Shown piece after piece: positions 861 to 33,794 of a DNA stretch of 64,000 nucleotides. The notes under the pieces were generated by a model, which was not told the DNA's origin, did not search any database, and was given only the letters and a program-made list of their open reading frames with translations. Location of the stretch: assembly GCF_036014015.1 (NCBI RefSeq), contig NZ_CP107905.1, positions 4,092,001 to 4,156,000 on the forward strand, in the 5' to 3' direction. The stretch comes from Streptomyces sp. NBC_00457. Its GTDB lineage: Bacteria; Actinomycetota; Actinomycetes; Streptomycetales; Streptomycetaceae. The position numbers and the translations under genes are program-made. Each line of letters opens with the position of its first letter. The stretch's first letter is position 1.

Positions 861-863
861 CGC

Positions 864-18836: not shown

Positions 18837-19040
18837 CTCTCATTCCTCCCAGCACGAATCCAGCACGGTAGGGATGAGCAGGGGTGATGACAGGTGACGA
18901 CAGGTCAGGTATCCCAGCACCACCCCAGCACGGGAAAAACCAAGGGCCCGACCCCGAAGAGCCGGACCCATTCTGACCCGCACGTTTACCAGATCAGCGA
19001 CGTGGTGATACGTCACCCGCTACACGTTGAAGCGGAACTC
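18837..19040. repeat. Left copy of the ychF 3'-end repeat (putative att-derived, 204 bp)
   Basis: Aligns with 33592-33794. The stretch 18848-18900 (53 bases) is identical, and the rest is close. At its right end 19020-19040 encodes, on the minus strand, the same last residues as ychF (EFRFNV-stop) with synonymous differences. It includes several CCAGCAC motifs. Read as a duplicated or imported integration target. Confidence 0.75.
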
Positions 19041-19152
19041 TCAACGCAGCGCTCCCACCTGCAGAGACCTCCCTTCGAGTGATCGTATCCAGCACCCATC
19101 CAGCACCGTCTGGGCCGATCCAGCACATCCAGCACGTCAAGCCGCAGAGACA
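19031..19152. repeat. Direct repeat B, left copy (122 bp) flanking the SNF2/TA module
   Basis: Aligns with 22382-22502. It covers the end of the integrase frame and the ATCCAGCAC array. Both copies run from AGCGGAAC to GCCGCAGAGACA. Confidence 0.75.
19087..19135. repeat. Four ATCCAGCAC iterons
   Basis: ATCCAGCAC at 19087, 19098, 19118 and 19127. Further copies lie at 18858, 33613, 33667 and 33678, and in repeat B right copy at 22448, 22468 and 22477. Such short direct repeats beside an integrase resemble arm-type recombinase binding sites. Confidence 0.65.
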
Positions 19153-19379
19153 GACTCCTCCGACCCTCGACCGCAGGGCGCATGGCGTTCTGCATGACGT
19201 CCCGACAACGGTCCCACGCCTCCGGGACAAGGTGACCGTAGATGTCCACGGTGGTCTTGATCGACTTGTGGCCGAGCCAGCGAGAGACCTTGCAGATCGG
19301 TATGCCGTTGGCCAACGCGGTCGAGGCGAAGAAGTGCCACAGGCTGACGGGCGCGTACTTGGCCTTGCCCCAACCCGAT

Positions 19380-21605
19380 TCACTCGGCTGCCGTGAGCCT
19401 CTCGTCCGCCATGCCCAGACGCGCCTGTTCCTCCTCGACGATCCGGCGTGCCAGCTCGGTGTCCGACACGTCGACCGCGTCCGGGGTGGCTTCGGCAACG
19501 GCGCTGCGACGGGCGTATGCATCGAACAGGCGTGTCTTGGCCTCCAGCATCTTCACCATGCGTTCGTCCACGCCCCCGGTGGCGAGGAGACGGTACACGC
19601 GAACCGGCCTGACCTGCCCCATACGGTGGGCCCGGGCCACCGCCTGATGTTCGATGGTCGGCTTGATCTGGGGTTCACAGATGACGACGACGGAGGCAGC
19701 CTGCATGTTGAGGCCGACGCCCGCTGCCTGGATCTGCGCCAAGAGCACCGCGGGGCCCGAGACGCCAGCGAAGTCGTCGACGATCTGCTGCCGCCGCCCG
19801 GCCGGGACGCTTCCTGTGAGCGAACCGAACACTGGAGTGCCGTCGGTGGTTCCGGCCACGAGTGCTTCCTTCACCACGCCCAGTACGTCCTTGAAATGGG
19901 AGAAGACCACCGTCTTCTGCCCGTTCTCGCCGGCCTCCTGAACGATCTCCAGGAGCCGGTCCAGCTTCGTCGACTCCTCGGGGCGCATGTACGCGGCCCT
20001 GCGCATCGCCATGAAGTTGCCGGCGCGCACGGCTTCGCGGTACACCTCCTCGTCCGATGCGCTCAGCTCCTCCCACTCGTCGGTCTGCTGCAGACTCGGG
20101 AGTTCTGTCAGTACATCCTCTTGGTTGCGCCGCAGGTAGACCGGGGCCACGGCCTTGCGGAAGGCGACCGATCCGGCCAACGCGTCCCGTTCGCTCAGGG
20201 AATCCGCGACGTCGCCGTCGAGCATCCGGACCAAGTCGCGGAACTCCACAACCCTGTTCTCCATCGGGGTTCCGGTCATGAACAGGGCGTGCCCGCAACG
20301 CTCCGCCCACAGGGCGACCGCCTGGGACCGCTTGGCCTTCGGGTTCTTCACGAAGTGCGCTTCGTCGACCACGAGCAGTCCAACCTCCCCGCCGCCCGGT
20401 ACGGGAAACCCGCGCAGTGCGTCGAACGTGGTCACCGCGACTCCACCACGCCCCTTCCAGTCGGCGAACGCGTAGTGCCGATCGGGGCCGTGGAGCACCA
20501 TGACACGCATGGCACTGCGGGCCTCGACCTCTCGTGTCCAGTTCACCAGGACACTCGCCGGGCAAACGACCATGAAGTGGCTCTGTCCCTCGGCGACCAG
20601 GTGTGCCAGCACAGCGATCGCCTGGATGGTCTTCCCGAGGCCCATCTCGTCTCCGAGTATCACCTTGCGTTGCGCAAGCGCGAACCGCGCGCCGAACGCC
20701 TGGTAACCGCGCAGGGAGACCCGCCGGTGCGCGTCGTCGAGGTGTTGGGTCCGTACCCGCTCGGCAATCTCGTCCGGCAGGAACCCCTCGGCGGCGGCCG
20801 CGTCCGGCAGCCGGCCGGAGATCTCGGCGAGCACGCTGTAGTACTCGGCAGAGCGGAGTTCGAAGTCCATCCAGGCCGCGATGTCGGACGAAGGCCCCCG
20901 GAGCAGGTCTACCGATGCCTGGGCCAGCAGCCCAGGCAGGCCCGCCCGCTCCGCCTCGTCCACCAGCGACCGGATCTCGGTGACCGCCGCCAACGCGCGA
21001 GCCTTCTTCTCCTGGCCCGCCAGGAACATCCGGATGCGTCCGGCGGCGGGCCTGGCGTCGGCGAGCAACGGAACGAGCCGTTCCGACAGGACGGCGGCCT
21101 TGTCGACCGCACGCCGAGCGTCCGGACCGGCCTCCACCAGTACGTGCAACGCCATGACGAGCGCGGTGGTGCTCGGTTCCGGCCGGTCCACGTCGATGTG
21201 GACGGCAACGGTCTGGTGCACAGCCTCGGAGAGTCGGCGGGCGGCGGCGAGCATATGGTCAACGGTGCGCTGCCCGACACCGGGAATCTGCCGCAACCTG
21301 TACGAGCCCGCTTCGAGGACACTGCCCAATGTGCGCAGTCCGCTCTTCTCAACGATCCCCAGCCTCAGCCGTCCTTCAGTGACGTCCTGCAGCCGAACGA
21401 CAGGGATGGCGTCGAGCTCCCGCTTCACCGCTGCGTCGTGAATCGGCTTCAGTGCCGCCCGCGCCGCGTCCACGGCCCTCCCGTGGTCACCGACCACTGC
21501 CTGCGCCGCCTCGCACAGTCGCGCTCCCCTCGCGACCGTGTCCCGCTCACCCCGCCCCACGCTTCCCGCCCCTCCGTCGCCCTCGCCGGATCCTCCCACC
21601 GCCAC
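19380..21605 (-). CDS. SNF2-family DEAH helicase/ATPase
   Basis: 741 residues from GTG 21605 (CGGGAG 5 bases upstream); the frame is open further but would overlap the divergent antitoxin gene. N-terminal third is helical with a helix-hairpin-helix-like QIPGVGQRTVDHML at about 105-118. The two RecA lobes follow: motif I DEMGLGKT at 319-326, DEAH at 414-417, MTGTPMENR (III), and the C-terminal lobe with FSHFKDV, QIQAAGVGLNMQAA and the AVARAHRMGQ motif VI. SNF2 proteins translocate on duplex DNA; stand-alone bacterial forms on mobile elements are often in defence or element maintenance. Divergent from an RHH/PIN pair and bracketed by direct repeats B. Confidence 0.92.
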   Translation of the reverse strand: MAVGGSGEGDGGAGSVGRGERDTVARGARLCEAAQAVVGDHGRAVDAARAALKPIHDAAVKRELDAIPVVRLQDVTEGRLRLGIVEKSGLRTLGSVLEAGSYRLRQIPGVGQRTVDHMLAAARRLSEAVHQTVAVHIDVDRPEPSTTALVMALHVLVEAGPDARRAVDKAAVLSERLVPLLADARPAAGRIRMFLAGQEKKARALAAVTEIRSLVDEAERAGLPGLLAQASVDLLRGPSSDIAAWMDFELRSAEYYSVLAEISGRLPDAAAAEGFLPDEIAERVRTQHLDDAHRRVSLRGYQAFGARFALAQRKVILGDEMGLGKTIQAIAVLAHLVAEGQSHFMVVCPASVLVNWTREVEARSAMRVMVLHGPDRHYAFADWKGRGGVAVTTFDALRGFPVPGGGEVGLLVVDEAHFVKNPKAKRSQAVALWAERCGHALFMTGTPMENRVVEFRDLVRMLDGDVADSLSERDALAGSVAFRKAVAPVYLRRNQEDVLTELPSLQQTDEWEELSASDEEVYREAVRAGNFMAMRRAAYMRPEESTKLDRLLEIVQEAGENGQKTVVFSHFKDVLGVVKEALVAGTTDGTPVFGSLTGSVPAGRRQQIVDDFAGVSGPAVLLAQIQAAGVGLNMQAASVVVICEPQIKPTIEHQAVARAHRMGQVRPVRVYRLLATGGVDERMVKMLEAKTRLFDAYARRSAVAEATPDAVDVSDTELARRIVEEEQARLGMADERLTAAE

Positions 21606-21707
21606 ACCGGCTCCCGACAGGCGTTCACGCAGCCCGGCGGATCGATCGGACCCCGCGAGGAGCTGTTCACACCCCAAAGACTTACGACCGCCGGTAGGAT
21701 TGGCACC

Positions 21708-21959
21708 ATGAGTAGTAGCAGGAAATACTCGATCAGTCTGCCTGAAGATCTCGCCGAGGCCGTGCGCGCCCACGTCGGGCCCGGCGGTTTCTCCGCCTAC
21801 GTTGCCGAGGCTCTCGAACAGCGGGTTGCGATGGACAAGTTGCGGGAGATCGTCGCCGACTTCGAGACCGACAACGAGGAACTCACCCGCGAAGAGATCG
21901 AGGCCGCACGCGCGGTGCTGCGCCACGACCACCGACAGGCCGGCGGGGCCGCCGCCTGA
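21708..21959 (+). CDS. Ribbon-helix-helix antitoxin
   Basis: 83 residues; ATG 21708 with TAGGATT upstream. The N-terminal KYSISLPEDLAEAVRAHVGPGGFSAYVAEALEQR is a CopG/VapB-like RHH DNA-binding domain, and the acidic C-terminal helix (EIVADFETDNEELTREEIEA) is the usual toxin-binding tail. The stop overlaps the PIN gene start (TGATG), the standard antitoxin-toxin order. Expected to neutralise the PIN protein and autorepress. Confidence 0.88.
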   Translation: MSSSRKYSISLPEDLAEAVRAHVGPGGFSAYVAEALEQRVAMDKLREIVADFETDNEELTREEIEAARAVLRHDHRQAGGAAA

Positions 21960-22351
21960 TGCCCGGCACCGTGCTGCTCGACAGCGAAGGGCTCTCGAAG
22001 CTCTACCGCAAGGACCGCACCGTCGTGGCTCTGGTCCAGGCGGCGTCGGAAGAGGGCATCCGTGTGGCCACCAGTGCCATGACCACCCTTGAGGCCGACT
22101 ACGACCGCATCCACCAGGCCCGTATCAAGTGGGTCCTCTCCCGCGTGGACGTTCACGACGTCACCAAGGAGATCGCCGACCGGGCCGCCGTCCTTCTTCG
22201 CACCCATCACCTCCACGGCCACAAGTACGCCATCGATGCCGCTCTCGCCGCCATCGCCCACAGCGTGCCCCAGCCGGTCACGGTCCTCACTTCTGACCCC
22301 GAGGACCTGACACTCCTGTGCGGCCCTACCGTGGAAGTCGTCAAAGTCTGA
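21959..22351 (+). CDS. PIN-domain ribonuclease toxin (VapC-like)
   Basis: 130 residues. The four acidic metal ligands of a PIN domain are visible: Asp8 (LLDSEGLSKL), Glu45 (TSAMTTLEADY), Asp93 (HKYAIDAALAA) and Asp113 (VLTSDPEDL). VapC toxins cleave tRNA or rRNA. Translationally coupled to the RHH antitoxin upstream. The pair probably stabilises the repeat-bounded module that also carries the SNF2 gene. Confidence 0.9.
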   Translation: MPGTVLLDSEGLSKLYRKDRTVVALVQAASEEGIRVATSAMTTLEADYDRIHQARIKWVLSRVDVHDVTKEIADRAAVLLRTHHLHGHKYAIDAALAAIAHSVPQPVTVLTSDPEDLTLLCGPTVEVVKV

Positions 22352-22381
22352 GAAGTTTCACTGCCCCGCTGACCAGGCCTG

Positions 22382-22502
22382 AGCGGAACACTCAATACGG
22401 CGCTCCCACCTGCGGAAACGCCCTTCGGATGATCGTATCCAGCGCCCATCCAGCACCGTCTGAGCCGATCCAGCACATCCAGCACGTCAAGCCGCAGAGA
22501 CA
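22382..22502. repeat. Direct repeat B, right copy, with three ATCCAGCAC iterons
   Basis: 121 bases aligned with 19031-19152 at roughly 85-90 percent by eye. ATCCAGCAC at 22448, 22468 and 22477; a fourth site is mutated to ATCCAGCGC. With the left copy it brackets 3.3 kb carrying the integrase remnant, SNF2 and RHH/PIN genes. Confidence 0.75.
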
Positions 22503-22944
22503 CCCGGCCGCGAGGAAGACGCTGGACGCCTTTGTCCGTTCGGTCAAGGTACGCGCGCCCGAATCGGGCGTCCGCGGCGAACCCGACCACCGACGTATTC
22601 TCCTTCGCCAGCGACTCCGCCTTCGTGGAGTTCCTGTTGTCGGCCGTGCAGATGCCGGCCAACGGTTCGACGAACTCCAGCGCGCCGGCCACATGGCCGG
22701 CTGCCGCGTGGAAGCGGAAGCGGCGGGCCGGGCGTCCCATCGCCCCGTCGTCGGGAAAGAGTTCCTCCGCCCAGCCGCGGCCGGTCAGGTCGGACTCGAC
22801 CGTGGGGCGCGAGAGTCCGGCGGTCTTGGCCAGCTGACTGAGCGTGGTGGGGGCACCGGCATGGCGCAGGGCGCGCAGGGCCGCCTTGGCGTTCTGCGCG
22901 CGGATGAACGCCTGGTCGGCGCCGCTGTTCTGAGGAGTCCGCAT
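22503..22944 (-). pseudogene. ROK-type regulator N-terminus fused to other fragments
   Basis: From ATG 22944 the first 90 codons resemble the winged HTH of ROK-family repressors (AQNAKAALRALRHAGAPTTL, SQLAKTAGLSRPTVESDLTG, and MGRPARRFRF). After GHVAGALEF the frame continues into unrelated residues and then reads through repeat B into the integrase tail (SLRLDVLDVLDRLRRCWMGA). The ROK sugar-kinase-like domain is missing. A mosaic scar rather than a functional protein. Confidence 0.65.
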
Positions 22945-23144
22945 GCCGTCCCCAGGTCATTGCGCGCACGAGCGCCGCTACCGGTACGCCCAAGCGGTGG
23001 GTCGGCACCGGCAGCTTCCACGTGACCGGCCTCTCCGACCGCGACCCGCTGCACAAACTGCCGGTCGTCGAGCAGCTGGAGGCCGCGCTCTACACCGACG
23101 CCCTGGTCACCCTCGCCCCCACGCGCACCCTCCCGCCGAAGTAG
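22945..23144 (+). pseudogene. Gene fragment of unknown family
   Basis: A codon-biased frame ending at TAG 23142-23144 encodes GTGSFHVTGLSDRDPLHKLP followed by VVEQLEAALYTDALVTLAPT. It has no start or ribosome site and is cut at the left by the ROK remnant. It looks like the C-terminus of a lost enzyme gene; I do not recognise the family. Confidence 0.35.
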
Positions 23145-23267
23145 CCGCCCTCCGGGACGCTGATGAGCGCCATGCATCACGGCGTCCCCAACCGGCATTG
23201 GACCGCCCGGGAGCCGGTCACCAATAGTGCTGGGCATGGGCGCAGACGCCGTGACGGAGGTTCACCG

Positions 23268-24365
23268 ATGACCAGCTCCCCCCCACCCGGAACCACCGAG
23301 CCGGCCCGTGCCGCCTCGCCGTTGACGATCAGCGAGCAAGGCGCGTTCTGGGTCGGTGTCGGGCGCAAGCCGACCGAGGCCGGGACCGCCGCCGAGGCCG
23401 CGATGTACGTCCAGTACCAGATCCCGGCCGATCTCCGGCATCCGCTGCCCGTGGTGATGGTCCACGGGGGCGGCGGCCAGGGCTCGGACTACCTGTCGAC
23501 GCCTGACGGCCGCCCCGGCTGGGCCACCCGGTTCGTCGAGGCCGGTTACGCCGTGTACGTGGTCGACCGTCCGGGGCACGGGCGCTCCCCGTACCACCCC
23601 GATGTCCTCGGGCCCATCGAGGGCGCGGCGCCGACGTACGAGTTCATCCGCTGGCTGTTCTGCGACGGGGCGGGACGACCCGTCAGCCAGTGGCCCGGCA
23701 GCGGCGAAATCGGCGACGACTGCGCGCTGGACCAGCTGATGGCGAGCCAGGGCCCGACGCTGCCCACCTTCACCGCGAACGAGGAGCAGATGCGGCGCTG
23801 CGGGGCCGAGTTGCTGGACCGGATCGGACCGGCCGTGCTGATCACCCACTCCATGGGGGCGCCCTTCGGCTGGTTGGTCGCCGATGCACGGCCCGGGCTG
23901 GTGAAGGCCGTCGTCTCCATCGAGCCGATAGGACCCCCGTTCGTCGAACTGCCCGGCCTCGGAAAGCTGGAGTGGGGGCTCACCGCGGCCCCGATCACTT
24001 ACGAGCCGCCGGTGCGGACCCCGGAGGAACTGCGCACCCGGCTGCGCGAGGCCGGGGGCGACGGGCCGCAGGACTGCCTGGTCCAGGACGAACACGCCGG
24101 CCCCGTGCGGTCCCTGCCAGGGCTGCGGGGCTTCCCGATCGCCGTGGTCGCGGCCGACGCCTCACCGTTCGCGGGGTTCCAGCACGGTGTCGCCGGCTAC
24201 CTCGCCCAGGCCGGTGCGGACGTCGAGTTGCTGCGCCTGGCGGACCTGGGGCTCACGGGCAACGGTCACCTGCCCATGGGTGAGAAGAACTCCGACGACG
24301 TGGCCGAGGCGCTGATGACCTGGCTGACCAAGCGGCTGGCGGCGGTGGAGGAAACCTCCCGATGA
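23268..24365 (+). CDS. Alpha/beta-fold hydrolase of the aromatic catabolic cluster
   Basis: 365 residues; ATG 23268 is preceded by GGAGG. Motifs: MVHGGGGQGSDYLSTPDGRP (oxyanion region), VDRPGHGRSPYHP, and THSMGAPFGW with Ser as nucleophile; the catalytic His is probably in GNGHLPMGEKN. Related large esterases act on short-chain or aromatic esters. It is the first gene of a coupled run (ATGA overlap with the FAD hydroxylase), so it could release the phenolic ring from an ester at the entry of the pathway; the substrate is inference. Confidence 0.88.
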   Translation: MTSSPPPGTTEPARAASPLTISEQGAFWVGVGRKPTEAGTAAEAAMYVQYQIPADLRHPLPVVMVHGGGGQGSDYLSTPDGRPGWATRFVEAGYAVYVVDRPGHGRSPYHPDVLGPIEGAAPTYEFIRWLFCDGAGRPVSQWPGSGEIGDDCALDQLMASQGPTLPTFTANEEQMRRCGAELLDRIGPAVLITHSMGAPFGWLVADARPGLVKAVVSIEPIGPPFVELPGLGKLEWGLTAAPITYEPPVRTPEELRTRLREAGGDGPQDCLVQDEHAGPVRSLPGLRGFPIAVVAADASPFAGFQHGVAGYLAQAGADVELLRLADLGLTGNGHLPMGEKNSDDVAEALMTWLTKRLAAVEETSR

Positions 24366-26119
24366 CAACCGCGACAACCGTCGAGACCGAGGTGCTCATC
24401 GTGGGCAGCGGCCCCGCGGGAGCGAGCGCCGCACTGGCACTGAGCACTTATGGTGTGCCGAACGTCATGGTCACCCGCTACTCACGCCTCGCGGACACGC
24501 CCCGGGCGCACATCACCAACCAGCGCACCATGGAAGTGCTGCGTGACCTCGGTGTGGAAGAGGACGTGATCGCCCAGGCCACCCCGCAGCACCTGATGGG
24601 CAACACCGTCTTCTGCACCGCCCTCGCGGGCGAGGAGCTCGGCCGGCTGAGGTCCTGGGGCAACGAGCCGCTCGTGCAGGCCGCGCACGAGCTGGCCAGC
24701 CCCACCCGGATGTGTGACATGCCGCAGCACCTCATGGAACCGGTGCTCGTGAACGCGGCCATAGCACGCGGAAGCCAACTACGGTTCGGCACCGAGTACC
24801 TGTCGCACGAGCAGGACGCCGACGGCGTGACCGCCACGGTCCGCGACCGGCTGCGCGGCGACACGTACACTATCCGGGCCAAGTACCTGATCGGCGCGGA
24901 CGGCGGCCGCAGCAAGGTGGCCGAGGACGCCGGGCTGCCGATGGGCGGCCAGATGGGCGTGGCCGGCAGCATCAACATCGTCTTCGACGCGGACCTCACC
25001 AAGTACGTGGCGCACCGCCCCGCCACCCTCTACTGGGTGCTGGCGCCCGGCGCGACCGTGGGCGGCATCGGCGCCGGTCTGGTGCGCTGCGTACGGACGT
25101 GGAACGAGTGGCTGATCGTGTGGGGCTACGACGTCGATGCCGGGCCGCCGGACCTCACCGAGGAGTACGCCCTGTCCGTCGTACGCAAGCTGATCGGCGA
25201 CGACGAGATCCCGGTGACCATCAAGTCGTCCTCCGCGTGGACGGTCAACGAGATGTACGCCGAGACCTACTCGAGCGGCCGGGTGTTCTGCGCGGGCGAC
25301 GCCTGCCACCGTCACCCACCGTCCAACGGGCTGGGCTCCAACACCTCCACACAGGACTCCTACAACCTGGCGTGGAAGCTGAAGCTGGTCCTGGACGGCA
25401 TCGCGTCCCCGTCCCTGCTGGACACCTACAGCGACGAGCGCGCGCCGGTCGGCAAGCAGGTCGTCACCCGGGCCAACCAGTCCATCGGTGAGACGGCACC
25501 CGTCTTCGAGGCGCTCGGCGGCCTGGCGCCGCAGACCCCCGAACAGCTGTGGCGGAACATCGCCGCCCGCAAGGACGCCACTACGGAGGCCGAGGAGCAG
25601 CGGGCGCGGCTGCGGGAGGCGATCGCCTTCAAGGCATACGAGTTCAACGCCCACGGCGTGGACCTCAACCAGCGCTACACCTCCGCCGCGATCGTCCCGG
25701 ACGGCACACCGGACCCCGGCTTCGCACGCGACCCCGAGCTGCACTTCCAGCCGAGCACCCGCCCCGGCGCCAAGCTCCCGCACGCCTGGCTCAGCTCCGG
25801 CACCCGCAATCTGTCCACCCTGGACCTGGGCGGAAACGGCCGGTTCACCCTGATCACCGGCATCGGCGGCGAGCCCTGGACGGAGGCCGCCCGCATCCTC
25901 GGCAAGGAGTTCGGCCTGGAGATCGCCACGGCGGTCATCGGCCCCGGCCAGGAGTACGAGGACCCGTACGGAGACTGGGCCCGGCTGCGGGAGATCGGCG
26001 ACTCGGGCGCGCTGCTGGTGCGGCCGGACAACCACGTGGCCTTCCGCCGCCAGGACGCCACCGGTGACGTCACGGCCGCACTGGGGGACGCGCTCCGGCA
26101 GATTCTCGGACGGGGCTGA
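24362..26119 (+). CDS. FAD-dependent phenol-type hydroxylase (TfdB/PheA-like)
   Basis: 585 residues, the class A flavoprotein hydroxylase length. FAD-binding GSGPAG at 15-20, the DTPRAHITNQRTMEVLRDLG segment, and the second FAD motif FCAGDACHRHPPSNGLGSN around residue 312-332. The C-terminal third is the thioredoxin-like dimerisation domain. Closest in pattern to 2,4-dichlorophenol 6-monooxygenase and related enzymes that use NAD(P)H and O2 to hydroxylate a phenol ortho to OH. In this operon it would supply hydroxyquinol or its precursor. ATGA overlap with the preceding gene. Confidence 0.9.
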   Translation: MTTATTVETEVLIVGSGPAGASAALALSTYGVPNVMVTRYSRLADTPRAHITNQRTMEVLRDLGVEEDVIAQATPQHLMGNTVFCTALAGEELGRLRSWGNEPLVQAAHELASPTRMCDMPQHLMEPVLVNAAIARGSQLRFGTEYLSHEQDADGVTATVRDRLRGDTYTIRAKYLIGADGGRSKVAEDAGLPMGGQMGVAGSINIVFDADLTKYVAHRPATLYWVLAPGATVGGIGAGLVRCVRTWNEWLIVWGYDVDAGPPDLTEEYALSVVRKLIGDDEIPVTIKSSSAWTVNEMYAETYSSGRVFCAGDACHRHPPSNGLGSNTSTQDSYNLAWKLKLVLDGIASPSLLDTYSDERAPVGKQVVTRANQSIGETAPVFEALGGLAPQTPEQLWRNIAARKDATTEAEEQRARLREAIAFKAYEFNAHGVDLNQRYTSAAIVPDGTPDPGFARDPELHFQPSTRPGAKLPHAWLSSGTRNLSTLDLGGNGRFTLITGIGGEPWTEAARILGKEFGLEIATAVIGPGQEYEDPYGDWARLREIGDSGALLVRPDNHVAFRRQDATGDVTAALGDALRQILGRG

Positions 26120-26125: not shown

Positions 26126-27004
26126 ATGGACTTCACCGCGAAGACCGCGAAGACCGCGACGACGACGGCGGTGCTCGAAAGCTTCGCCCACACCTCCGAT
26201 CCCCGACTGCGCGAGGTGCTGGCCTCCCTGACGCGTCACCTGCACGACTTCGTACGGGACATCGAGCCGACCCAGGCCGAGTGGGAGCGGGCGATCGACT
26301 TCCTCACCGCCACCGGGCACATGTGCGACGACACCCGGCAGGAGTTCATCCTGCTGTCGGACGTCCTGGGTGTGTCGATGCTCGTCGAGACGATCAACGA
26401 CCACAAGGCGGCCGCCGCGACCGACTCCACGGTGCTCGGCCCGTTCCACATGACCGAGTCCCCGATCCGGGAACTCGGGGCCACCATCGACCTGGTCGGC
26501 GCCGGCGAGCCCTGCGTGATCAGCGGACGGGTCGTCTCCGTCGACGGCACCCCGCTGCCCGCCGCGACGCTGGACGTGTGGCAGGCCGACGACCAGGGCT
26601 TCTACGACGTCCAGCAGCCGGAGAAGCAGCCGCCTGGCAATGGGCGCGGGCTGTTCACGGCGGACGCGGACGGGCGGTTCTGGTTCCGCTCGTGCGTTCC
26701 CAGCCCGTATCCGATTCCGACGGACGGGCCTGTCGGCTCCCTGCTGGAGGCGACCGGCCGCCACCCCTACCGTCCCGCCCATGTCCACTTCATCGTGGGC
26801 GCCGAGGGGCACAGCCCGGTGACGACGCACATCTTCGTGGCGGGCAGCGACTATCTGGAGTCGGACGCCGTCTTCGCCGTGAAGGAGGGCCTGGTCGAGG
26901 AGTTCGTCGAGGTGGACTCCCCCGAGGAGGCCGCAGAGCTGGGCCTGGCCAACCCCTTCCGCCGGGCTCGCTTCGACATCGTGCTGCAACCGGTGATCGT
27001 GTGA
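26126..27004 (+). CDS. Hydroxyquinol 1,2-dioxygenase (intradiol)
   Basis: 292 residues. Intradiol iron ligands are Tyr160 (DQGFYDVQ), Tyr195 (VPSPYPIP), His219 and His221 (RPAHVHF), at almost the same numbers as in characterised hydroxyquinol dioxygenases. The N-terminal about 100 residues form the helical dimer/lipid domain typical of the class. Reaction: 1,2,4-trihydroxybenzene plus O2 to maleylacetate (3-hydroxy-cis,cis-muconate). The maleylacetate reductase gene overlapping downstream supports hydroxyquinol over catechol as substrate. Confidence 0.92.
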   Translation: MDFTAKTAKTATTTAVLESFAHTSDPRLREVLASLTRHLHDFVRDIEPTQAEWERAIDFLTATGHMCDDTRQEFILLSDVLGVSMLVETINDHKAAAATDSTVLGPFHMTESPIRELGATIDLVGAGEPCVISGRVVSVDGTPLPAATLDVWQADDQGFYDVQQPEKQPPGNGRGLFTADADGRFWFRSCVPSPYPIPTDGPVGSLLEATGRHPYRPAHVHFIVGAEGHSPVTTHIFVAGSDYLESDAVFAVKEGLVEEFVEVDSPEEAAELGLANPFRRARFDIVLQPVIV

Positions 27005-28080
27005 AGGACGAGGCCCTGGACTTCACCTACCAGGCACAGCCGATGCGCGTCGTCTTCCGGTCGGGTGCGGTGCCGCGAGCGGTGCCCGACGAGGCCGCGC
27101 TTCTCGGACTGCGCCGCGTCCTCGTGCTGTGCGACGACCATGGCCTGGACACGGCCCGTGCCGTCGCCGCGTCTCTCGGCGAAGCCTGCGCCGGGCTGTA
27201 CGCGGGGGCGGTGACGCACGTCCCGGTGGAGGTCGCCGACCTGGCCGTCGAAGCGGCTCGCGAAGCCCGGGCCGACGGCTGCGTGGCGGTCGGCGGCGGT
27301 TCCGTGACCGGCCTGGCCAAGGCCGTCGCGCTCAGGACCGGCGTGCCGATCGTCGCCGTCCCGACGACGTACGCCGGCTCGGAGATGACCCCCGTCTGGG
27401 GCCTGACCGAGGGCGCGGTCAAGCGCACCGGGCGCGACCCGAAGGTGTTGCCGCGCAGCGTCGTGTACGACCCGCTGCTCACGCTCACCATGCCGCCCGT
27501 GGGGTCCGCGACGAGTGGCATGAACGCGATCGCGCACGCCGTCGAGGCTCTGTACGCCCCGGACTCCACTCCGATCGTCTCCCTCATGGCGGAGGAGGGT
27601 GTGCGGGCGCTGGCCGCGGCCCTTCCCGAGAGCGTCGCCGACCCCTCGGGGCATGACGCGCGCAGCCGCGCGCTGTACGGGGCGTGGCTGTGCGGTGCCT
27701 GTCTCGGCGCGACCACCATGGGGCTGCACCACAAGCTCTGCCATGTGCTCGGCGGCACCTTCGACCTGCCGCACGCCGAGACACACGCCGTCGTCCTGCC
27801 CCATGTGCTGGCCTTCAACGCGCCGGCGGTTCCCGAGGCACTGGCGGCGCTGCGCCGGGCGCTCGATGTCCCGGATCCGGTACGCGAGTTGCACGAGCTG
27901 GGTGAGCGGCTGGGCATCCCGCGATCGCTCGCCGACCTGGGCCTGACCGCCGCCGACGTGGACCGTGCGGTCGATGTCGCTCTCGGGGCGCCGTACGCGA
28001 ATCCCCGCCCGGCGTCCGCCGACGATCTGCGCGCCGTCCTGCACGCGGCCTGGGCGGGCGAGCCGCCGTACGGCGGCTGA
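27001..28080 (+). CDS. Maleylacetate reductase
   Basis: 359 residues from GTG 27001, overlapping the dioxygenase stop (GTGA). Iron-type alcohol dehydrogenase fold: NAD loop VAVGGGSVTGLAKAVAL, PTTYAGSEMTPVWGLT, and metal/catalytic region with GMNAIAHAVEALY and GLHHKLCHVLGGTFDLPHAE. The AGSEMTP and HHKLCHVLGG signatures are characteristic of maleylacetate reductases. It reduces maleylacetate to 3-oxoadipate with NADH, completing the lower hydroxyquinol route. Convergent with the LysR gene, 6 bases apart. Confidence 0.93.
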   Translation: MKDEALDFTYQAQPMRVVFRSGAVPRAVPDEAALLGLRRVLVLCDDHGLDTARAVAASLGEACAGLYAGAVTHVPVEVADLAVEAAREARADGCVAVGGGSVTGLAKAVALRTGVPIVAVPTTYAGSEMTPVWGLTEGAVKRTGRDPKVLPRSVVYDPLLTLTMPPVGSATSGMNAIAHAVEALYAPDSTPIVSLMAEEGVRALAAALPESVADPSGHDARSRALYGAWLCGACLGATTMGLHHKLCHVLGGTFDLPHAETHAVVLPHVLAFNAPAVPEALAALRRALDVPDPVRELHELGERLGIPRSLADLGLTAADVDRAVDVALGAPYANPRPASADDLRAVLHAAWAGEPPYGG

Positions 28081-28086
28081 CCGCTT

Positions 28087-28986
28087 CTACCGGGCGAGTT
28101 CGGCGTACGGAACGCCGCTCGCACGTCGGGCCACCCGGCGTGCGAGCTCGGCGAAGGCCGGGGCGGCGGGCGAGTGACCGGCCTCCGGAAAGGCGACGGC
28201 GGCCACCAAGCCGAGGGGCTCCTTCGGAGCGACGTTCTCCACTCCCGGGTGCGGGAACATCCGGGTGGCCGACAGCGGCATCAGTCCCACCATGTGCTGG
28301 TAGGCGATCTTCGAGGACACGTCCAGGGCCGAGCGGGCGTGGGAGCCGACTGTCGGGGCGTCGTCCCCGTTTCGTCTGCCCACCCAGAAGTCGAGGCCCG
28401 GCTCGGGGGTGACCCAGGGCTGATCGAAGACCTCGGTCACGTCCACCGCGGCGGCCGAGGCCAGCGGATGCCCCTTCCACAGCGCGAGGGAAGCGGGCTC
28501 GGTGAAGATCGGTACTCGTGTCAGGCCCGGCATGTCGACGTTCAGGGGCAACAGCGCCACGTCGTACTCGCCGGCCAGCAGCGGGGCGAGCCCCTGGTGG
28601 AAGTCCGCTTCGTGTACCCGGATCGTGACTCTGGGATACCGCTCGCAGAACGCCTCGATGACCGGATGCGTCAGCTCCGCGAGAGCCACCCCGTAGAGCG
28701 CGACCCGCACCTCGTCCCGTCGCCTGGCCCGGATGGCGCCCGCGGTGGCGGAGAGCCGCTCGGCGTCGGCCAGCACCTCGCCCGCCCGTTCGAGCAGTTC
28801 CGCGCCGTCGGCGGTGAGCGCCACATGCCGTTTGTCGCGGTCGAACAGCTGGACGCCCAGCTCACGCTCGAGGGCGGCGATCGATCGCGTCAGCGCGGGC
28901 TGGGTGAGGTGCAGACGCTCGGCGGCGACCCGGTAATTCAAGGTCTCGGCGAGCGCCGAGAAATGGCGCAGGCTCCGGAGTTCCAC
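28087..28986 (-). CDS. LysR-family regulator of the catabolic cluster
   Basis: 299 residues. HTH at 1-60: MELRSLRHFSALAETLNYRV, then LTQPALTRSIAALERELGVQ. The effector-binding domain follows. The length and N-terminus are like those of regulators of aromatic catabolism such as CatR/CbnR. Placed between the dioxygenase/reductase genes (convergent) and the oxygenase-reductase-ligase operon (divergent), it is well placed to control both. No clear ATAC-N7-GTAT box was seen in the 216-bp divergent gap. Confidence 0.9.
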   Translation of the reverse strand: MELRSLRHFSALAETLNYRVAAERLHLTQPALTRSIAALERELGVQLFDRDKRHVALTADGAELLERAGEVLADAERLSATAGAIRARRRDEVRVALYGVALAELTHPVIEAFCERYPRVTIRVHEADFHQGLAPLLAGEYDVALLPLNVDMPGLTRVPIFTEPASLALWKGHPLASAAAVDVTEVFDQPWVTPEPGLDFWVGRRNGDDAPTVGSHARSALDVSSKIAYQHMVGLMPLSATRMFPHPGVENVAPKEPLGLVAAVAFPEAGHSPAAPAFAELARRVARRASGVPYAELAR

Positions 28987-29202
28987 TCAGCCCTCCAGAA
29001 AGGCGAGGTCCACGGCGTTGTGGTCCGCGCCAGGTTACAGCGCGCTTCCCCGCACGTCACCAGGCAGAAATGTGCGGCATTCCCGTCACCCCCTCCGACC
29101 TGCTGTGATGCACGGCACTCATCAAGCCCACAGTTACCGGCATTGGACGGTCCTTCGCCGCGCTGCCAACACTCCCTTCAGGCCGACCCAGAACAGCAGC
29201 GG

Positions 29203-30456
29203 ATGGGGTGCGAATTGTCCGAGACAACCGAGGCAGCCGAGAAAATCATCGAGATTCCGCAGCCGGAGCCGGACCTGACACCGGAGGAACTGGTGCGCCG
29301 GGCCGCCGGCATGAGGGCCTGGCTTCGTGATCATCAGGACGAGACCGAACAGCGGACCGGTATCTCCGAGGACACGCACAAGGCGTTTCTGGAGGCGGGT
29401 TTTTACCGGGCCCTTCAGCCACGCCGCTTCGGCGGCTACGAGTTCGACCTGCGGACCTACTCCCGGATGGTCACCGAGGTGGCTCGCGGCTGCCCGTCCA
29501 GCGGATGGAACCTGTGTCTGGCCGCCTCCCACAGCCTGGTGGTGGCCGGCCGTTTCCCCGAGAGCACCCAGCGCGAGGTGTTCGGGCCGGACGGCGACTT
29601 CCGGGCCCCGTTGCCGATCGCCCCGAGCGCCACAGCGACGAGGACCCCTGACGGGTACCTGGTCAACGGCCGCTGGGACTACGCCTCCGGGGTCAACGTC
29701 TCCACGCACTTCCTCGGCGGTGTGCGCATCGTCGACGAGCAGGGCGGCATGCCCACGCCGGGCCTGGTGCTCGTCCCCTCCGGCTGGCGGATGCTCGACA
29801 ACTGGGGCGAGATCCTGGGCTTCCGCGGCAGCGGCTCCAACAGCGTCGTGGCCGAGGACGTCCTCGTACCGTACGAGTACGTGTCCAGGACCCACCTCCT
29901 GGCGAACGACGCCACCGGCGGACCAGGTGTCGAACTGCACGGCAACCCGATGTACGCGGGCCGGCTGATGGCGTTCTTCAACATCCAGCTGTGTTCGATC
30001 GTGGCGGGCACCGCCTTGGCCGCGGCCGACGAGTACCAGCGGATCATCACCACCAAGAACAGCCCGCTGCCCCCGTTCAAGCCGCGCAGCCACGACCCGG
30101 AACACCAGCGCAACTTCGGACTGGCCACGGCCCTGGCCGACAGCGCGCAGCGGATCATCCTGTCGGTCACCGACGACTACACCGCCTACGCGGCCCGGGG
30201 CCTGGCAGGGGGCGAGCCCTTCTCCGAACTGGACGACCAGGCCCTCTCCCTCACGGCCCGGCAGTCCGGCCAACTGGCCTGCCAGGCCGTCGAGATGCTG
30301 GCCTCGGCCAGTGGCTCCAGCGCGCTGGCGAACGGCGAGCGCATGCAGCGGTACCTGCGCGACGTCGCCACGTACAAGACGCACATCAACGCGCAGCACG
30401 GCTGGTGGGCGACGGGGTACGGCCGCTCTCTGCTCGGCGTGGAGACTCCGTCGTGA
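29203..30456 (+). CDS. Group D flavin-dependent monooxygenase, oxygenase component
   Basis: 417 residues from ATG 29203; TTG 29215, with GGGG upstream, is an alternative. Acyl-CoA-dehydrogenase-like fold: WLRDHQDETEQRTGISEDTH, YEFDLRTYSRMVTEVARGCP, SSGWNLCLAASHSLVVAGRF and the C-terminal helical bundle. The sequence belongs with HsaA, HpaB-like and resorcinol-type 4-hydroxylase oxygenases, which use FADH2 or FMNH2 supplied by a separate reductase. The reductase gene overlaps downstream. Likely hydroxylates the aromatic substrate toward hydroxyquinol; resorcinol is the best guess. Confidence 0.88.
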   Translation: MGCELSETTEAAEKIIEIPQPEPDLTPEELVRRAAGMRAWLRDHQDETEQRTGISEDTHKAFLEAGFYRALQPRRFGGYEFDLRTYSRMVTEVARGCPSSGWNLCLAASHSLVVAGRFPESTQREVFGPDGDFRAPLPIAPSATATRTPDGYLVNGRWDYASGVNVSTHFLGGVRIVDEQGGMPTPGLVLVPSGWRMLDNWGEILGFRGSGSNSVVAEDVLVPYEYVSRTHLLANDATGGPGVELHGNPMYAGRLMAFFNIQLCSIVAGTALAAADEYQRIITTKNSPLPPFKPRSHDPEHQRNFGLATALADSAQRIILSVTDDYTAYAARGLAGGEPFSELDDQALSLTARQSGQLACQAVEMLASASGSSALANGERMQRYLRDVATYKTHINAQHGWWATGYGRSLLGVETPS

Positions 30457-31025
30457 ACCGGTCGACGCCCGCCGCGACGGCGCCCGGCGGCGGCCAGGCG
30501 GACGACCCCGGCCGGTTCCGGCACGTGCTCGGCCACTACCCGACGGGTGTCACGGTGGTCACCGCGAAGGAACCCGACGGCACCCCGGTCGGCATGGTGA
30601 TCGGCTCGTTCGTCTCGGTGTCCCTGAACCCTCCGCTCGTCGCGTTCTTCCCCGGCCGCTCCTCCACCACCTGGCCAAGGATCATGGCCGGCGGCGCCTT
30701 CTGCGTGAATGTGCTGGCCGCCGGCCAGGAGGGTCTCTGCCGGGACGTCAGCGCCAAGGCACCCGACGTCTTCGACCGCCACCCGTGGCGCGGCGCGCCC
30801 TCGGGCAGCCCCGTCCTGGCGGGCGTCGTCGCCTGGATCGACTGCGACATCGCCGACGTGTGGACCCTCGGCGACCACTACTTCGTCCTCGGCCGGGTCC
30901 GGGAACTCGGGGTGGAGAAGGACGGCGCCGCGCCGCTGGTCTTCTCCCGGGGGCGGCTCGCCCCGTTGCCGCCCCGCCGGGACCACGACGAATCGGCCGA
31001 CTACACATGGCCCGACTGGCTCTGA
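30453..31025 (+). CDS. Flavin reductase component (HpaC/HsaB-like)
   Basis: 190 residues from GTG 30453, overlapping the oxygenase stop by GTGA. Split-barrel flavin reductase fold: FRHVLGHYPTGVTVVTAKEP, GMVIGSFVSVSLNPPLVAFF and FCVNVLAAGQEGLCRDVSAK. The family supplies reduced flavin to two-component monooxygenases using NAD(P)H. Direct coupling to the group D oxygenase identifies its partner. Confidence 0.92.
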   Translation: MNRSTPAATAPGGGQADDPGRFRHVLGHYPTGVTVVTAKEPDGTPVGMVIGSFVSVSLNPPLVAFFPGRSSTTWPRIMAGGAFCVNVLAAGQEGLCRDVSAKAPDVFDRHPWRGAPSGSPVLAGVVAWIDCDIADVWTLGDHYFVLGRVRELGVEKDGAAPLVFSRGRLAPLPPRRDHDESADYTWPDWL

Positions 31026-31051
31026 GAGCTCTGAGAGAAGAGAGACGCACC

Positions 31052-32581
31052 ATGCGCAATCAAGGGCTCGGCTCGTGGCCCGCGCGGCGCGCCCGCATGG
31101 CACCGGAGGCCACCGCCGTCGTGCACGACGGTGGATCCCTGTCCTACGGAGAGCTGGCCGCGCGCGTGACGCGGCTCGCTCACGCCCTGCGTGCCCTGGG
31201 GGTCGGACACGGTGACCGGGTGGCCTACCTCGGCGCGAACCATCCGGCCCTGGCGGAAACCCTGTTCGCCACGAGCGCGCTGGGCGCCGTCTTCGTCCCG
31301 CTCAACACCCGCCTCGCGGCACCTGAGTTGGCCTTCATCCTGGGGGACGCGGGGGCGCCGGTACTGCTGTACGACGCCGAACTCACCGACATCGTCGACG
31401 CGTTCAGGGACGACGTCGAGGTGAAGCACTACGTCGAGGTGGGGAAGGCGTACGAGGAGCTACTCGCGAGCGCGCCGGACAACCCCCTGGACGAGACGGT
31501 CGGCCTCGACGAGGTGTGCATGATCCAGTACACCTCCGGCACCAGCGGCCGTCCCAAGGGCGTCATGCTCACCCACGCCAACATCGCCTGGAACTGCTTC
31601 AACATCCTGCTGGACGTGGACATCGCCTCCGACGACGTCGCTCTGGTGGTGGCACCGATGTTCCACACCGCCGCCCTCAACACCGTCTTCCTGCCGGGCT
31701 TCCTCAAAGGAGGGACGTCGGTGCTGATGCGCGGTTTCGACCCGGAAGGGGTGCTCGACGTCATCGCCGAGCACCGGGTGACAAGGATGTTCGGCGTACC
31801 CGCGATGTACCAGGCCATGGCCCGGTCGTCGCGGTGGGCGACGGCCGACCTGTCGTCGATCCGGATCCTGATGTGCGCGGCGGCACCCGTACCCAAGGCC
31901 CTCATCCACACATACCAGGACCGTGGCCTGACCTTCCTCCAGGCGTACGGCCTGACCGAGACCGCTCCCGCCGCGCTGGGCCTGCGCGCACCGGACAGCA
32001 TCCGCAAGGCCGGCTCGGCCGGCACACCCTGCTTCTTCACCGACGTACGCGTGGTGCGGCCCGACCTCACCGATGTCGCACCGGGCGAGGTCGGCGAGGT
32101 GATCATCGAGGGCCTCAACGTGATGAAGGGCTACTGGCAGTGGCCCGAAGCGACCAAGGACGCCTTCATCCAAGGAAGTTGGTTCCGCTCCGGAGACGCG
32201 GCCACTGTCGACGAGGAGGGGTACGTCACGATCGTCGACCGAATCAAGGACATGTACATCTCCGGCGGGGAGAACGTCTACCCCGCAGAGGTCGAGCAAC
32301 TCCTCTACCAGCATCCCGCGGTCGCCGAATGCGCGGTGATCGGCGTACCCGACGAACGATGGGGCGAGGTCGGCAGAGCGCTGGTCGTGCCCCGCGCGGG
32401 CTCCGCCGTGTCGCCCGACGACATCATGGACTCCCTGTCCGGCCGACTCGCCAAGTACAAGCTCCCGAAGTCGGTCGTCCTCGTAGACACCCTCCCCCGC
32501 AACGCCACCGGCAAGATCCTCAAGGCCCGCCTGCGCAGCCAGTACGGCTCCGTACCAGACCGCGGCGCCGAGGAGGCATGA
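31052..32581 (+). CDS. Acyl-CoA ligase (AMP-forming)
   Basis: 509 residues; ATG 31052 follows GAGAGAAGAGAG. ANL superfamily motifs: YTSGTSGRPKG at 160-170, AYGLTETAPAALG, SGDAATVDEEGYVTIVDRIKD (A7-A8), YISGGENVYPAEVE, and the catalytic Lys in PRNATGKILK near the C-terminus. It would activate a fatty or aromatic carboxylate as CoA thioester. In the operon with the two-component oxygenase it suggests that the substrate carries a side chain or acid group, or that the pathway product is thioesterified. Confidence 0.9.
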   Translation: MRNQGLGSWPARRARMAPEATAVVHDGGSLSYGELAARVTRLAHALRALGVGHGDRVAYLGANHPALAETLFATSALGAVFVPLNTRLAAPELAFILGDAGAPVLLYDAELTDIVDAFRDDVEVKHYVEVGKAYEELLASAPDNPLDETVGLDEVCMIQYTSGTSGRPKGVMLTHANIAWNCFNILLDVDIASDDVALVVAPMFHTAALNTVFLPGFLKGGTSVLMRGFDPEGVLDVIAEHRVTRMFGVPAMYQAMARSSRWATADLSSIRILMCAAAPVPKALIHTYQDRGLTFLQAYGLTETAPAALGLRAPDSIRKAGSAGTPCFFTDVRVVRPDLTDVAPGEVGEVIIEGLNVMKGYWQWPEATKDAFIQGSWFRSGDAATVDEEGYVTIVDRIKDMYISGGENVYPAEVEQLLYQHPAVAECAVIGVPDERWGEVGRALVVPRAGSAVSPDDIMDSLSGRLAKYKLPKSVVLVDTLPRNATGKILKARLRSQYGSVPDRGAEEA

Positions 32582-32756
32582 CGCCAGGCCAGGGAACCCG
32601 AACACTCCACGCCACACGGTCACCACGTCTTTCGCCAACCGTGGCGGGGGCCTCGCCTCCCTGCGGGCCCCACGCGAAAGCCGGTGGACGGCGCCGGCGC
32701 GACTTCGCCCGCATCGCCGACTGCCGCACCGGCGAGGTCACCTACACCTGGACCGA
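32582..32756. other. Short gap with a gene-tail fragment
   Basis: A plus-strand frame ends at 32775 with FARIADCRTGEVTYTWTDYG then TWR, which looks like the C-terminus of an unrelated protein. It abuts the broken GHKL ATPase at about 32757-32775, marking a deletion junction. Confidence 0.4.
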
Positions 32757-33313
32757 CTACGGCACCTGGAGATAGATCGCGAATTCTGCCGAGAGAGTGT
32801 CGATCAGCGAGTCCTGCTCAAGCTGCTTACCCGCCGCTTCATGGACCGGGACGATGGAGACCGTGGTGCCCTTTTCCCTCTCGGCCGAAGCAGTGGTGAT
32901 CTCGAAGCGGCGCAGATTGTGACGCTCCGCGCGGATTCTCGTCTCGGTGGCAGGGCCGTCCTCATGCACCGTGCACCATTCGACGACATCGCCGCTACCG
33001 AATGCCGCGAACCGCCCCTTGCCCTGTTCTCCGTGAAGGCGCCGCCCCTGCTGCCGCGTAGTCCTGGTGGCCCTCTTCCATGAGCCCCCCAGTGCGCCGA
33101 ATCCCTGCTGCACGTCGTCTGGCGACATACCGTGACCGCGGTCCACCACGAGGACGCGTTCCACAGCACCCAGCGTGCTGAACTCAAGGCCCCATCGACG
33201 ACGTCAGCATCCGTGTCGAGGGCGTTCCAGATGAGTTCCGTCAGGCCGGCGCGCGGACCACGGACAAGGTGGGCCAGGTGATCTCCGTCCACCTGCACAG
33301 TCAGGGAATGCAC
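32757..33313 (-). pseudogene. GHKL (Hsp90-like) ATPase, frameshifted and truncated
   Basis: Two minus-strand frames make up one protein. From ATG 33313 the first encodes HLVRGPRAGLTELIWNALDT then DADVV, the N-box helix of a Bergerat fold. After about 33180 homology continues in another frame with VERVLVVDRGHGMSPDDVQQ (the D-x-G-x-G box), GALGGSWK and HGEQGKGRFAAFGSGD (the glycine lid). The frame stops after FAIYLQVP, well short of full length. A frameshift in the GALSS region plus 3' truncation make it non-functional. Similar ATPases occur in phage-defence and restriction loci. Confidence 0.75.
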
Positions 33314-33591
33314 GCGTGCATGACAGCACGAGGCAAGCCACTCGTGTCCGACTTCATCCAGACGCCCACCGTCTTCCGCGCCATCACGGCTTCAACGGGC
33401 TGACCTCCAGTCAGCGTTCCTCAAGAACAGCAGAAGAGCCAACCCACCACAGCACCCATGGCCCCGGCCGGGACCCTCGCCACTCGCAAGACGGAGCGCC
33501 ATCGCCTCCGCCACGTGAACGAAGGCCGTCACGGGCCACGAGGCGCCTCTCGACCGCAGGCCAGGCTCTGGACAGTGCTCGCCCCAGGGCG
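33314..33591. other. Non-coding stretch before the right island repeat
   Basis: 278 bases with only short frames of no family resemblance. It separates the broken GHKL ATPase from the ychF-proximal repeat. Confidence 0.4.
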
Positions 33592-33794
33592 CTCTCATCC
33601 TCCCCAGCACGAATCCAGCACGGTAGGGATGAGCAGGGGTGATGACAGGTGACGAGAGGTCAGAAAATCCAGCACCTATCCAGCACGGTAAAAATCAAGG
33701 GGCCTGACCCCGAGAGCCAGACCCATTTGACCTGCACGTTTACCAGATCAGTGAAGTGATGCTAAGCCACCGGCTAGACATTGAAGCGGAACTC
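33592..33794. repeat. Right copy of the ychF 3'-end repeat (native ychF end)
   Basis: Counterpart of 18837-19040; 33603-33655 is identical to 18848-18900. It spans the intergenic region downstream of ychF and the last seven ychF codons. ATCCAGCAC copies at 33613, 33667 and 33678. Confidence 0.75.

Follow-up and report, generated by a model that had tools for sequence, protein, structure and literature searches.

The window, a 64-kb stretch of Streptomyces DNA, carries ychF and, behind its 3' end, a 33-kb variable region that runs to a flank gene; its extension to about position 800 was overlooked in the original prediction. The features of the region are given below, with coordinates and strand.

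1..797, plus: flank gene, which we take from its translation to be a LysR-type regulator; it bounds the variable region on the side away from ychF
863..1960, minus: HEPN-like and nucleotidyltransferase-like gene pair, also found at the ychF locus of L159, L156, and L165
18832..19023, minus: P'-type arm belonging to a further unit; the repeat's left copy
19024..19040, minus: core in the left copy, with 19029-19035 as the predicted overlap
19041..19160, minus: P-type arm with four TCCAGCAC repeats (profile, 86.9 bits)
within 19140..19379, minus: C-terminal remnant of a tyrosine recombinase (79% over 66 residues to the intact L091 integrase)
19380..21932, minus: SNF2-family helicase ORF (Pfam)
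21711..22351, plus: VapBC-type toxin-antitoxin pair, vapB 21711-21959 and vapC 21959-22351 (ORFs)
22378..22395, minus: decayed internal core
22396..22505, minus: second P-type arm, TCCAGCAC at 22449, 22469, and 22478, with no integrase left beside it in the unit (profile, 66.7 bits)
22984..32589, plus: catabolic cluster of hydrolase, FAD monooxygenase, intradiol dioxygenase, Fe-ADH, acyl-CoA-DH type, flavin reductase, and AMP ligase (Pfam)
33587..33777, minus: P'-type arm with the ychF stop, a terminator-like hairpin, and TCCAGCAC at 33614, 33668, and 33679
33778..33794, minus: core located at the end of ychF, with 33783-33789 as the predicted 7-bp overlap
33774..34862, minus: ychF (Obg-like GTPase), the target gene (ORF; genus-wide match)

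Attachment-site pieces and a probable decayed stack in the window

The name ychF is a putative assignment that follows the original prediction. At E <= 1e-100, the gene had a counterpart in 197 of the 199 genomes of the genus, with no internal stop among the matches listed; in one genome (G082), the match was restricted to residues 2-302. Alignment of 33587-33794 with 18832-19040 gave 86.7% identity over 211 columns (E about 1e-62), the longest exact run being 53 bp (starting at 18848 and 33603). This bears out the 204-bp repeat (18837-19040 versus 33592-33794) that had been described with 53 identical bases, and both copies indeed carry the last seven codons of ychF (E-F-R-F-N-V-stop), which differ synonymously between them. 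A third, decayed copy, which had been overlooked, was found at 22382-22502 and is 90% identical to 19031-19152. Clusters of an arm-type repeat had likewise been overlooked: the motif TCCAGCAC occurs 20 times in the window on both strands versus 2.4 expected, and 11 of the 16 plus-strand occurrences fall inside the three att regions (661 bp in total). Judged by their sequence, all three copies are attachment-site pieces, with the last ychF codons as the putative core and TCCAGCAC arm repeats adjoining it. Since no tRNA gene was found in the 64-kb window, a tRNA was ruled out as the integration target.

The integrase remnant proposed earlier was confirmed by its match to an intact integrase. The start of the neighboring helicase ORF overlaps vapB, so that the true start probably lies further in. 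Pfam gave no match for the vapBC pair, and the window vapC is 47% identical to a PIN-domain protein of L130. The helicase and vapBC form a 3.25-kb unit at ychF in another genome (G136, locus L102), where the 22378-19380 block stands alone directly behind ychF (89.8% identity, 3,006 columns). At the other end of the variable region, the HEPN-like protein scored 22.4 bits against Pfam HEPN, below the cut-off of 27.2; the second gene of that pair had no Pfam match and is presumably nucleotidyltransferase-like.

The catabolic cluster, which contains a LysR gene on the minus strand, was 95% colinear with a block at 8.24 Mb in G049, 1.7 Mb from that genome's ychF, and its inclusion in the element was therefore not supported. 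Its interpretation as co-evolved cargo was rejected as well, because it is located elsewhere in relatives (positions counted over the first 28 non-window rows of the match list); in our reading, a chromosomal catabolic block was also brought into the decayed stack.

The original prediction was a single 15-kb island integrated once at ychF, with which the two strong direct repeats and the integrase remnant at one end agree. It is contradicted by the third att copy, the stand-alone block in G136, the P'-type arm to the left of the left core, the chromosomal position of the catabolic block elsewhere, and the flank gene 33 kb away; we rejected it on the first two of these and consider it very unlikely. 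Because of the third copy, the stand-alone block, and the 33-kb variable region, the window is better described as holding a decayed stack, with at least two tandem decayed units (33794-22395 and 22395-19040) and, beyond them, an arm from one more. Where the outermost unit should end distally, no site was found in the window. The proposal that the left copy had come with the element from another host was not supported either: if exchange takes place in the core, the final codons, stop, and terminator of the copy next to ychF would be the ones derived from an element, and the left copy would be the arm of another unit.

Integrases and units at the ychF 3' end in other genomes

In 21 genomes, the gap between ychF and the LysR flank gene ranged from 32 bp (G189) to 52.9 kb, and related genomes carried many different units at the site. 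The expected variation among relatives, with ychF empty or followed by other elements, was thus seen, and the opposite case of the same 15 kb without variation at ychF was not. The earlier claim of integration into the 3' end of a protein-coding gene is supported.

In 14 of the 16 loci named, a tyrosine recombinase of one clade (Phage_integrase domain, Pfam PF00589) ends 105 to 147 bp before such a core. Twelve of these recombinases are nearly full-length, although the match changes frame in two (L199 and L201), and two are partial. Intact integrases next to EFRFNV-type repeats, as sought in relatives, do exist. Among the 125 integrase matches listed, at least 31 copies or fragments were at least 48% identical; 10 of these lie on contigs other than ychF's, and all 21 on the ychF contig (17 genomes) are downstream of ychF and co-oriented with it. 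Below 48% identity, none of the 52 same-contig rows among the matches listed was downstream. The full integrase of L095, only 29% identical, was counted apart from the clade. On a single contig, L199 shows ychF, a core, a 7.7-kb integrase unit (whose match changes frame once), a core, a 3.3-kb integrase-less unit, and a core. Outside the genus but within the family, the core stands beside the integrase in L184, L187, and L189 and was not seen there in L185, L190, and L192. We rejected an origin of the integrase from phages or plasmids, as nothing close was found (best among the matches listed, 34% and 27% identity). The cargo of two autonomous, integrase-bearing units was restriction-modification, and no conjugation gene (traB/FtsK-like or relaxase) was found among those predicted proteins other than integrases that were scanned (12 of 15 in L091 and 6 of 11 in L107).

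A site profile comprising the P arm and core, seeded from ychF's strand only, was run on 101 loci and gave 195 matches on that strand (79 at the cores of ychF itself, 69 at additional cores, and 47 stopping short of the core) versus none on the opposite one; at 40 bits or more the numbers were 50 and 0, and the best match in shuffled loci reached 5.9 bits. Thirty-nine of 61 loci showed no second site within 20 kb. Fifty-seven units of 0.8 to 17.4 kb could be delimited, some of whose borders depend on weak sites (15 to 25 bits). Forty-three had no integrase match, 9 kept integrase fragments, and 34 had the arm motif on both sides. The 14 shortest measured 795 to 1,456 bp, and 11 of these hold one toxin-antitoxin pair; two of the 14 (L121 and L152) have the arm motif on neither side. 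Of 59 units, 40 had the same overlap 7-mer at their two ends (permutation mean, 32.9; P 0.0006; neighboring units share ends) and 19 had different ones, several cores being decayed. Behind the core, compensatory changes were seen at 10 of the 13 pairs of the hairpin (26 chosen sequences). Direct repeats at both ends and a preserved target gene, as in integrative elements, were both found.

The unit counts are not frequencies, because the locus sets were hand-picked or selected: L071 to L130 represent 60 genomes of few contigs each (20 at most), chosen by eye among the ychF places listed, and L131 to L170 were mostly chosen for several att or integrase matches or for close kinship. Core-like matches without arms were dropped before the units were counted (L073, L074, L075, L081, L085, L088, L094, L118, the second of L107, and the first of L098), while the decayed cores of L105 and L077 were included and the site of L123 (15.9 bits), a displaced ychF fragment, was retained.

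Longer displaced ychF 3' fragments occur in G180 (L123) and G075 (L171), so ordinary rearrangement also takes place at ychF. They would fit an old segmental duplication or homologous recombination, with no site-specific recombination at all, as the source of the repeats; against this stand the arm repeats, the clade-specific integrase beside the cores, the strict orientation, and the site-restricted cassettes described below, which leave it scarcely credible.

We are confident, short of certainty, that the ychF 3' end is the attB of this tyrosine recombinase clade, at which integrase-bearing and integrase-less units stack head to tail. The attP would consist of a P arm (repeats TGCTGGAT), the core ACGTT-CCGCTTC-AACGT, and a P' arm (stop codon, terminator hairpin, and more repeats), with binding presumably at the arms. 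Strand exchange, with the crossover predicted within the core, would keep the ychF frame and supply the element's stop and terminator, so that ychF should come to no harm by the insertion. A core already present could serve incoming units, which would lead to head-to-tail stacking in one direction. Autonomous units would bring the integrase and cargo; most delimited units appear to have kept the core, arms, and cargo without an integrase, the shortest often carrying one toxin-antitoxin pair, and may be mobilized in trans if recombination is active. Neither an excised circle nor an empty and occupied pair within one species was seen.

Toxin-antitoxin cassettes behind ychF

Two cassettes were followed over all 59 + 50 listed rows (coordinates, like those of the 125 integrase rows, were transcribed by hand). 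The YefM-YoeB cassette (>= 77% identity) lay within 100 kb downstream of ychF in 25 of 27 same-contig rows (23 genomes), at distances of 99 bp to 82 kb, and PhdYefM-ParE was downstream in 38 of 43 (36 genomes), at about 70 bp to 30 kb. Pooled, 63 of 70 same-contig places were downstream, all 63 co-oriented. Two YefM-YoeB rows, one of them on a displaced ychF 3' fragment, and five PhdYefM-ParE rows were off-site on ychF's contig; a further four and seven, respectively, were on other contigs. The identity of PhdYefM-ParE was uncorrelated with that of ychF (r = -0.00; 66 pairs, 12 genomes), and that of YefM-YoeB was still weakly linked to the host (r = 0.24; 28 pairs, 8 genomes).

The small units could be the remains of large integrase-bearing elements, i.e., classical CIMEs produced by decay alone, rather than mobile cassettes. 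Toxin-antitoxin pairs would then persist because their loss is punished, and the arms near the ends would persist with them. The integrase fragments kept in 9 of 57 units are in line with this, the window itself is such a case, and accretion after decay is a published route, as described in PMC5704250 and PMC9513070. Decay accounts less readily for the recurrence of the same compact pairs at varied distances behind ychF in 36 and 23 genomes, for the lack of a vertical signal in PhdYefM-ParE, and for the compactness of the 14 short units; we regard it as quite possible, if a little short of probable. Decay followed by cis-mobilization of units may also be compatible with compact recurring pairs.

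Our tentative alternative, to which we give somewhat less than even odds, is an integron-like system in which autonomous elements would provide an ordinary tyrosine integrase in trans. Minimal arm-core cassettes, often with a single toxin-antitoxin pair, would circulate among Streptomyces species and queue at the ychF end, the addiction modules guarding the array. The ychF site as a whole would be an integration hotspot that is widespread and lies in a conserved gene. It would also offer a candidate attB/integrase set for engineering Streptomyces and a natural example of single toxin-antitoxin pairs traveling as cassettes. The old question of whether such pairs are selfish spreaders or array stabilizers would become directly testable.

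Comparison with known systems

In chromosomal integrons, small cassettes, among them many with toxin-antitoxin genes, line up in one direction, and so do those at ychF. The ychF units differ by their arm repeats and by a core that they have in common with ychF, and their anchor is ychF, not attI; the integrase scored far below the cut-off of integron-integrase models (NCBIfam TIGR02249, 45.2 bits versus 265) and thus does not qualify as an integron integrase. Our literature search found no report of a hotspot at the ychF 3' end.

CIME and ICE-IME accretion, as described in PMC5704250, involves tandem units at one target gene, some of them integrase-less, with att sites retained, and the ychF units share these traits. 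With 43 of 57 units lacking an integrase and 34 of 57 having the arm motif on both sides, the CIME traits of a missing integrase and att sites at both ends are also seen. Here, however, units sit at ychF, an integrase is absent from the majority of those delimited, the smallest consist of one toxin-antitoxin cassette each, and the scanned proteins of two autonomous units include no conjugation gene.

A pneumococcal prophage between dnaN and ychF likewise has an att site adjoining ychF; according to PMC6375853, that site is intergenic, 14 bp long, and on the promoter side, unrelated to the ychF 3'-end core.

PAISt of Streptomyces turgidiscabies (PMC4057263) resembles the present case in host type, tyrosine recombinase, use of a protein-coding 3' end (bacA), and an internal att site that divides it into modules. 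It differs in its target, its 8-bp palindrome, and its modules of 105 and 569 kb, compared with a 17-bp core with arms and units of 0.8 to 17.4 kb at ychF.

Streptomyces AICEs, as described in PMC9513070, share with the ychF system accretion at one site, decay, and tandem integrases. Their targets are mostly tRNA genes, traB is their signature, and their integrase sequence did not track the site, whereas at ychF one integrase clade tracks one protein-coding site.

Repeats and arrangement of the window

Comparison of the window with itself aligned its two long repeat copies at 86.7% identity over 211 alignment columns, with a longest exact run of 53 bp, and both copies end with the last ychF codons, which bears out the repeat proposed in the original prediction. 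A third repeat piece matches positions 19031-19152 at 90% identity. The window contains 20 copies of the motif TCCAGCAC (2.4 expected), and 11 of the 16 plus-strand copies lie inside the three repeat regions, which total 661 bp. The features in question are as follows.

1-797: LysR-type gene, the far border of the variable region
863-5783: HEPN-like pair block and neighbouring block
18832-19040: left long repeat copy
22382-22502: third repeat piece
22984-32589: aromatic catabolic cluster
33587-33794: long repeat copy at ychF
33774-34862, minus strand: ychF

Read in the direction of ychF, a full site consists of a P arm with repeats, a 17-bp core and a P' arm containing the stop codon, a hairpin and further repeats. 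The core is ACGTT-CCGCTTC-AACGT, and mostly GAGTT-CCGCTTC-AACGT in ychF itself; the DNA between two successive cores is called a unit here. Starting from ychF, the window shows a core, a P' arm, the catabolic cluster, a P arm and a decayed core, then vapBC, an SNF2 helicase, the integrase remnant, a P arm and the left core, and beyond it a P' arm, other genes and LysR. This order is that of a decayed tandem array. Site-specific integration into the 3' end of ychF, as originally proposed, is probably correct in kind; the single 15-kb island is wrong, given the third att piece and the P arms and cores in series.

The catabolic cluster encodes an FAD monooxygenase, an intradiol dioxygenase, an Fe-ADH, possibly of the maleylacetate-reductase type, and an AMP ligase. 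It is 95% colinear with a segment of genome G049 at 8.24 Mb, 1.7 Mb from ychF of that genome; its position differs between the two genomes. Matches to the searched part of the cluster were found in 52 of 169 genomes, counting that of the window. Among the first 28 non-window rows (single matches), 10 were on other contigs and 18 on ychF's contig, none of the 18 within 100 kb downstream of ychF. The cluster reached the ychF locus through another or later event.

Sites and units downstream of ychF

A site profile built from 44 seed sites was used to search both strands of 101 loci (60 plus 40 stretches and the window). It gave 195 matches at E <= 0.01, every one on ychF's strand, comprising 79 ychF cores, 69 further cores and 47 matches short of the core; 50 scored at least 40 bits, and the best score in shuffled loci was 5.9 bits. 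The first set consists of 60 genomes plus the window, 61 loci in all, and 22 of these have one or more additional sites within 20 kb. In 40 of 59 units the two ends carry the same 7-mer in the predicted overlap at the core centre (permutation mean, 32.9; P 0.0006). Since the hairpin downstream of the core is conserved in 26 chosen sequences, with 10 of 13 pairs compensated, a unit probably supplies ychF with a terminator.

We delimited 57 units, the shortest 795 bp and the longest 17427 bp; some of their borders depend on weak sites (15-25 bits). Arm motifs averaged 1.91 per 240 bp on one side, 1.79 per 130 bp on the other and 0.18 per 240 bp inside the units; they flanked both sides of 34 of the 57 units and neither side of the short units L121 and L152. 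By tblastn, a full integrase was found in 5 units (4 clade members and 1 at 29% identity), a fragment or weak match in 9, and no match in 43. Units shorter than 1.5 kb mostly (11 of 14) carry a two-gene toxin-antitoxin pair, apparently truncated in L131, of the YefM-YoeB, PhdYefM-ParE or VapBC type, as named by Pfam on representatives or, where Pfam was silent, by similarity (49% and 47% identity); the remaining three carry a pentapeptide protein, a Uma2 protein and an unnamed protein. Ahead of the integrase, both autonomous units, L091 and L107, encode a DUF6879 protein, an HTH/DUF5753 regulator, an AAA_25 protein and one further, unnamed protein of ~190 aa; their cargoes are different restriction-modification systems, type I and type ISP. 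No conjugation genes were seen among the non-integrase proteins scanned in them (12 of 15 and 6 of 11, respectively).

Locus L142 (G045) has three successive small units of 848, 1381 and 795 bp, two of them being different toxin-antitoxin pairs. A 472-aa ORF ahead of the second core recurs in L076, L120 and L128; that of L076 is an AAA ATPase with DUF234.

Integrases beside the cores

The L091 integrase, a 394-aa tyrosine recombinase with a Phage_integrase domain and an N-terminal SAM-like domain, ends 99 bp ahead of a core; its distant solved relatives are Int of 6en0/6emy and XerD. We compared 125 integrase rows among the matches listed in a search of 199 genomes with the places of ychF. Among these listed matches, 31 had at least 48% identity, 10 on contigs other than ychF's and 21 (17 genomes; some are fragments) on ychF's contig, and all 21 lay downstream of ychF, at most 64 kb away and co-oriented. 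Below 48% identity, none of the 52 listed same-contig rows was within 100 kb downstream of ychF; the other listed rows of these 94 were on other contigs (41) or had no ychF place (1).

Among 16 loci from named genomes, 14 had a core 105-147 bp past the integrase match, 12 with nearly full-length integrases and 2 with partial ones (L206, L207); two of the 12 matches, in L199 and L201, have one frame change each. No core was found beside the integrase in Sphaerisporangium album (39% identity) or on the 3.8-kb contig of S. boluensis. A family-wide search gave integrase matches at E <= 1e-60 in 8 of 200 genomes; these belong to 5 of 17 genera, one of them that of the window. The core was present beside the integrase in both loci of G382, from the window's genus, and in L184, L187 and L189 from other genera; it was not found in L185, L190, L192 or L188 (integrase at 40% identity). 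No ychF match was seen in these loci, the stretches being ~3-4 kb long. In genome G191 (L153, L168, L178, L179), two contigs carry six clade-integrase rows among the matches listed, along with several att sites, and these may form an array longer than 100 kb.

Probable spread of cassettes and extent of the variable region

At 77% identity or more, 25 of 27 same-contig YefM-YoeB rows (23 genomes) lay within 100 kb downstream of ychF, and 4 further rows were on other contigs. Below 77%, none of 11 same-contig rows was in that range, 16 were on other contigs and 1 was unplaced. One of the two off-site rows of the first group is in G075; there, a displaced ychF 3' fragment (L171, 7876-7911), 246 kb from ychF, bears a P'-type arm and the cassette. 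This secondary site probably arose by rearrangement. For PhdYefM-ParE, 38 of 43 same-contig rows (36 genomes), some being short pieces, were within 100 kb downstream of ychF and 7 rows were on other contigs; no arm-flanked core was found at the two of five off-site copies that were read (G107, G079). All 63 on-site rows of both cassettes had the same orientation relative to ychF. Cassette identity showed no correlation with host identity for PhdYefM-ParE (r = -0.00; 66 pairs, 12 genomes) and a weak one for YefM-YoeB (r = 0.24; 28 pairs, 8 genomes), which, together with the recurrence at ychF, supports horizontal spread of the small cassettes. Action of the integrase on them in trans is a candidate mechanism.

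LysR directly follows ychF in G189 (32-bp gap) and G193 (224-bp gap). A LysR homologue of at least 74% identity was found in 30 of 199 genomes, on ychF's contig in 22 and on a different contig in 7; in the last, G152, no ychF match was found. In 21 of the 22, the distance from ychF downstream to LysR ranges from 32 bp to 52.9 kb (33.0 kb in the window genome), the single outlier being G117, at 2.8 Mb. The HEPN-like pair block and its neighbour, which we take to be ABC-transporter-like, are in reversed order in G122 (L165); the modules of this region move independently. Locus L123 (G180) contains, 9.7 kb past ychF, a longer ychF 3' fragment that lacks arm repeats and may be a native end that was displaced.

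The end of ychF is probably a directional, cassette-like integration hotspot, a finding larger than the island originally flagged. We recognised no description of it among the open-licence papers listed; protein-coding insertion sites, 14 in number, are referred to in the text of PMC9513070 and given in its supplement.
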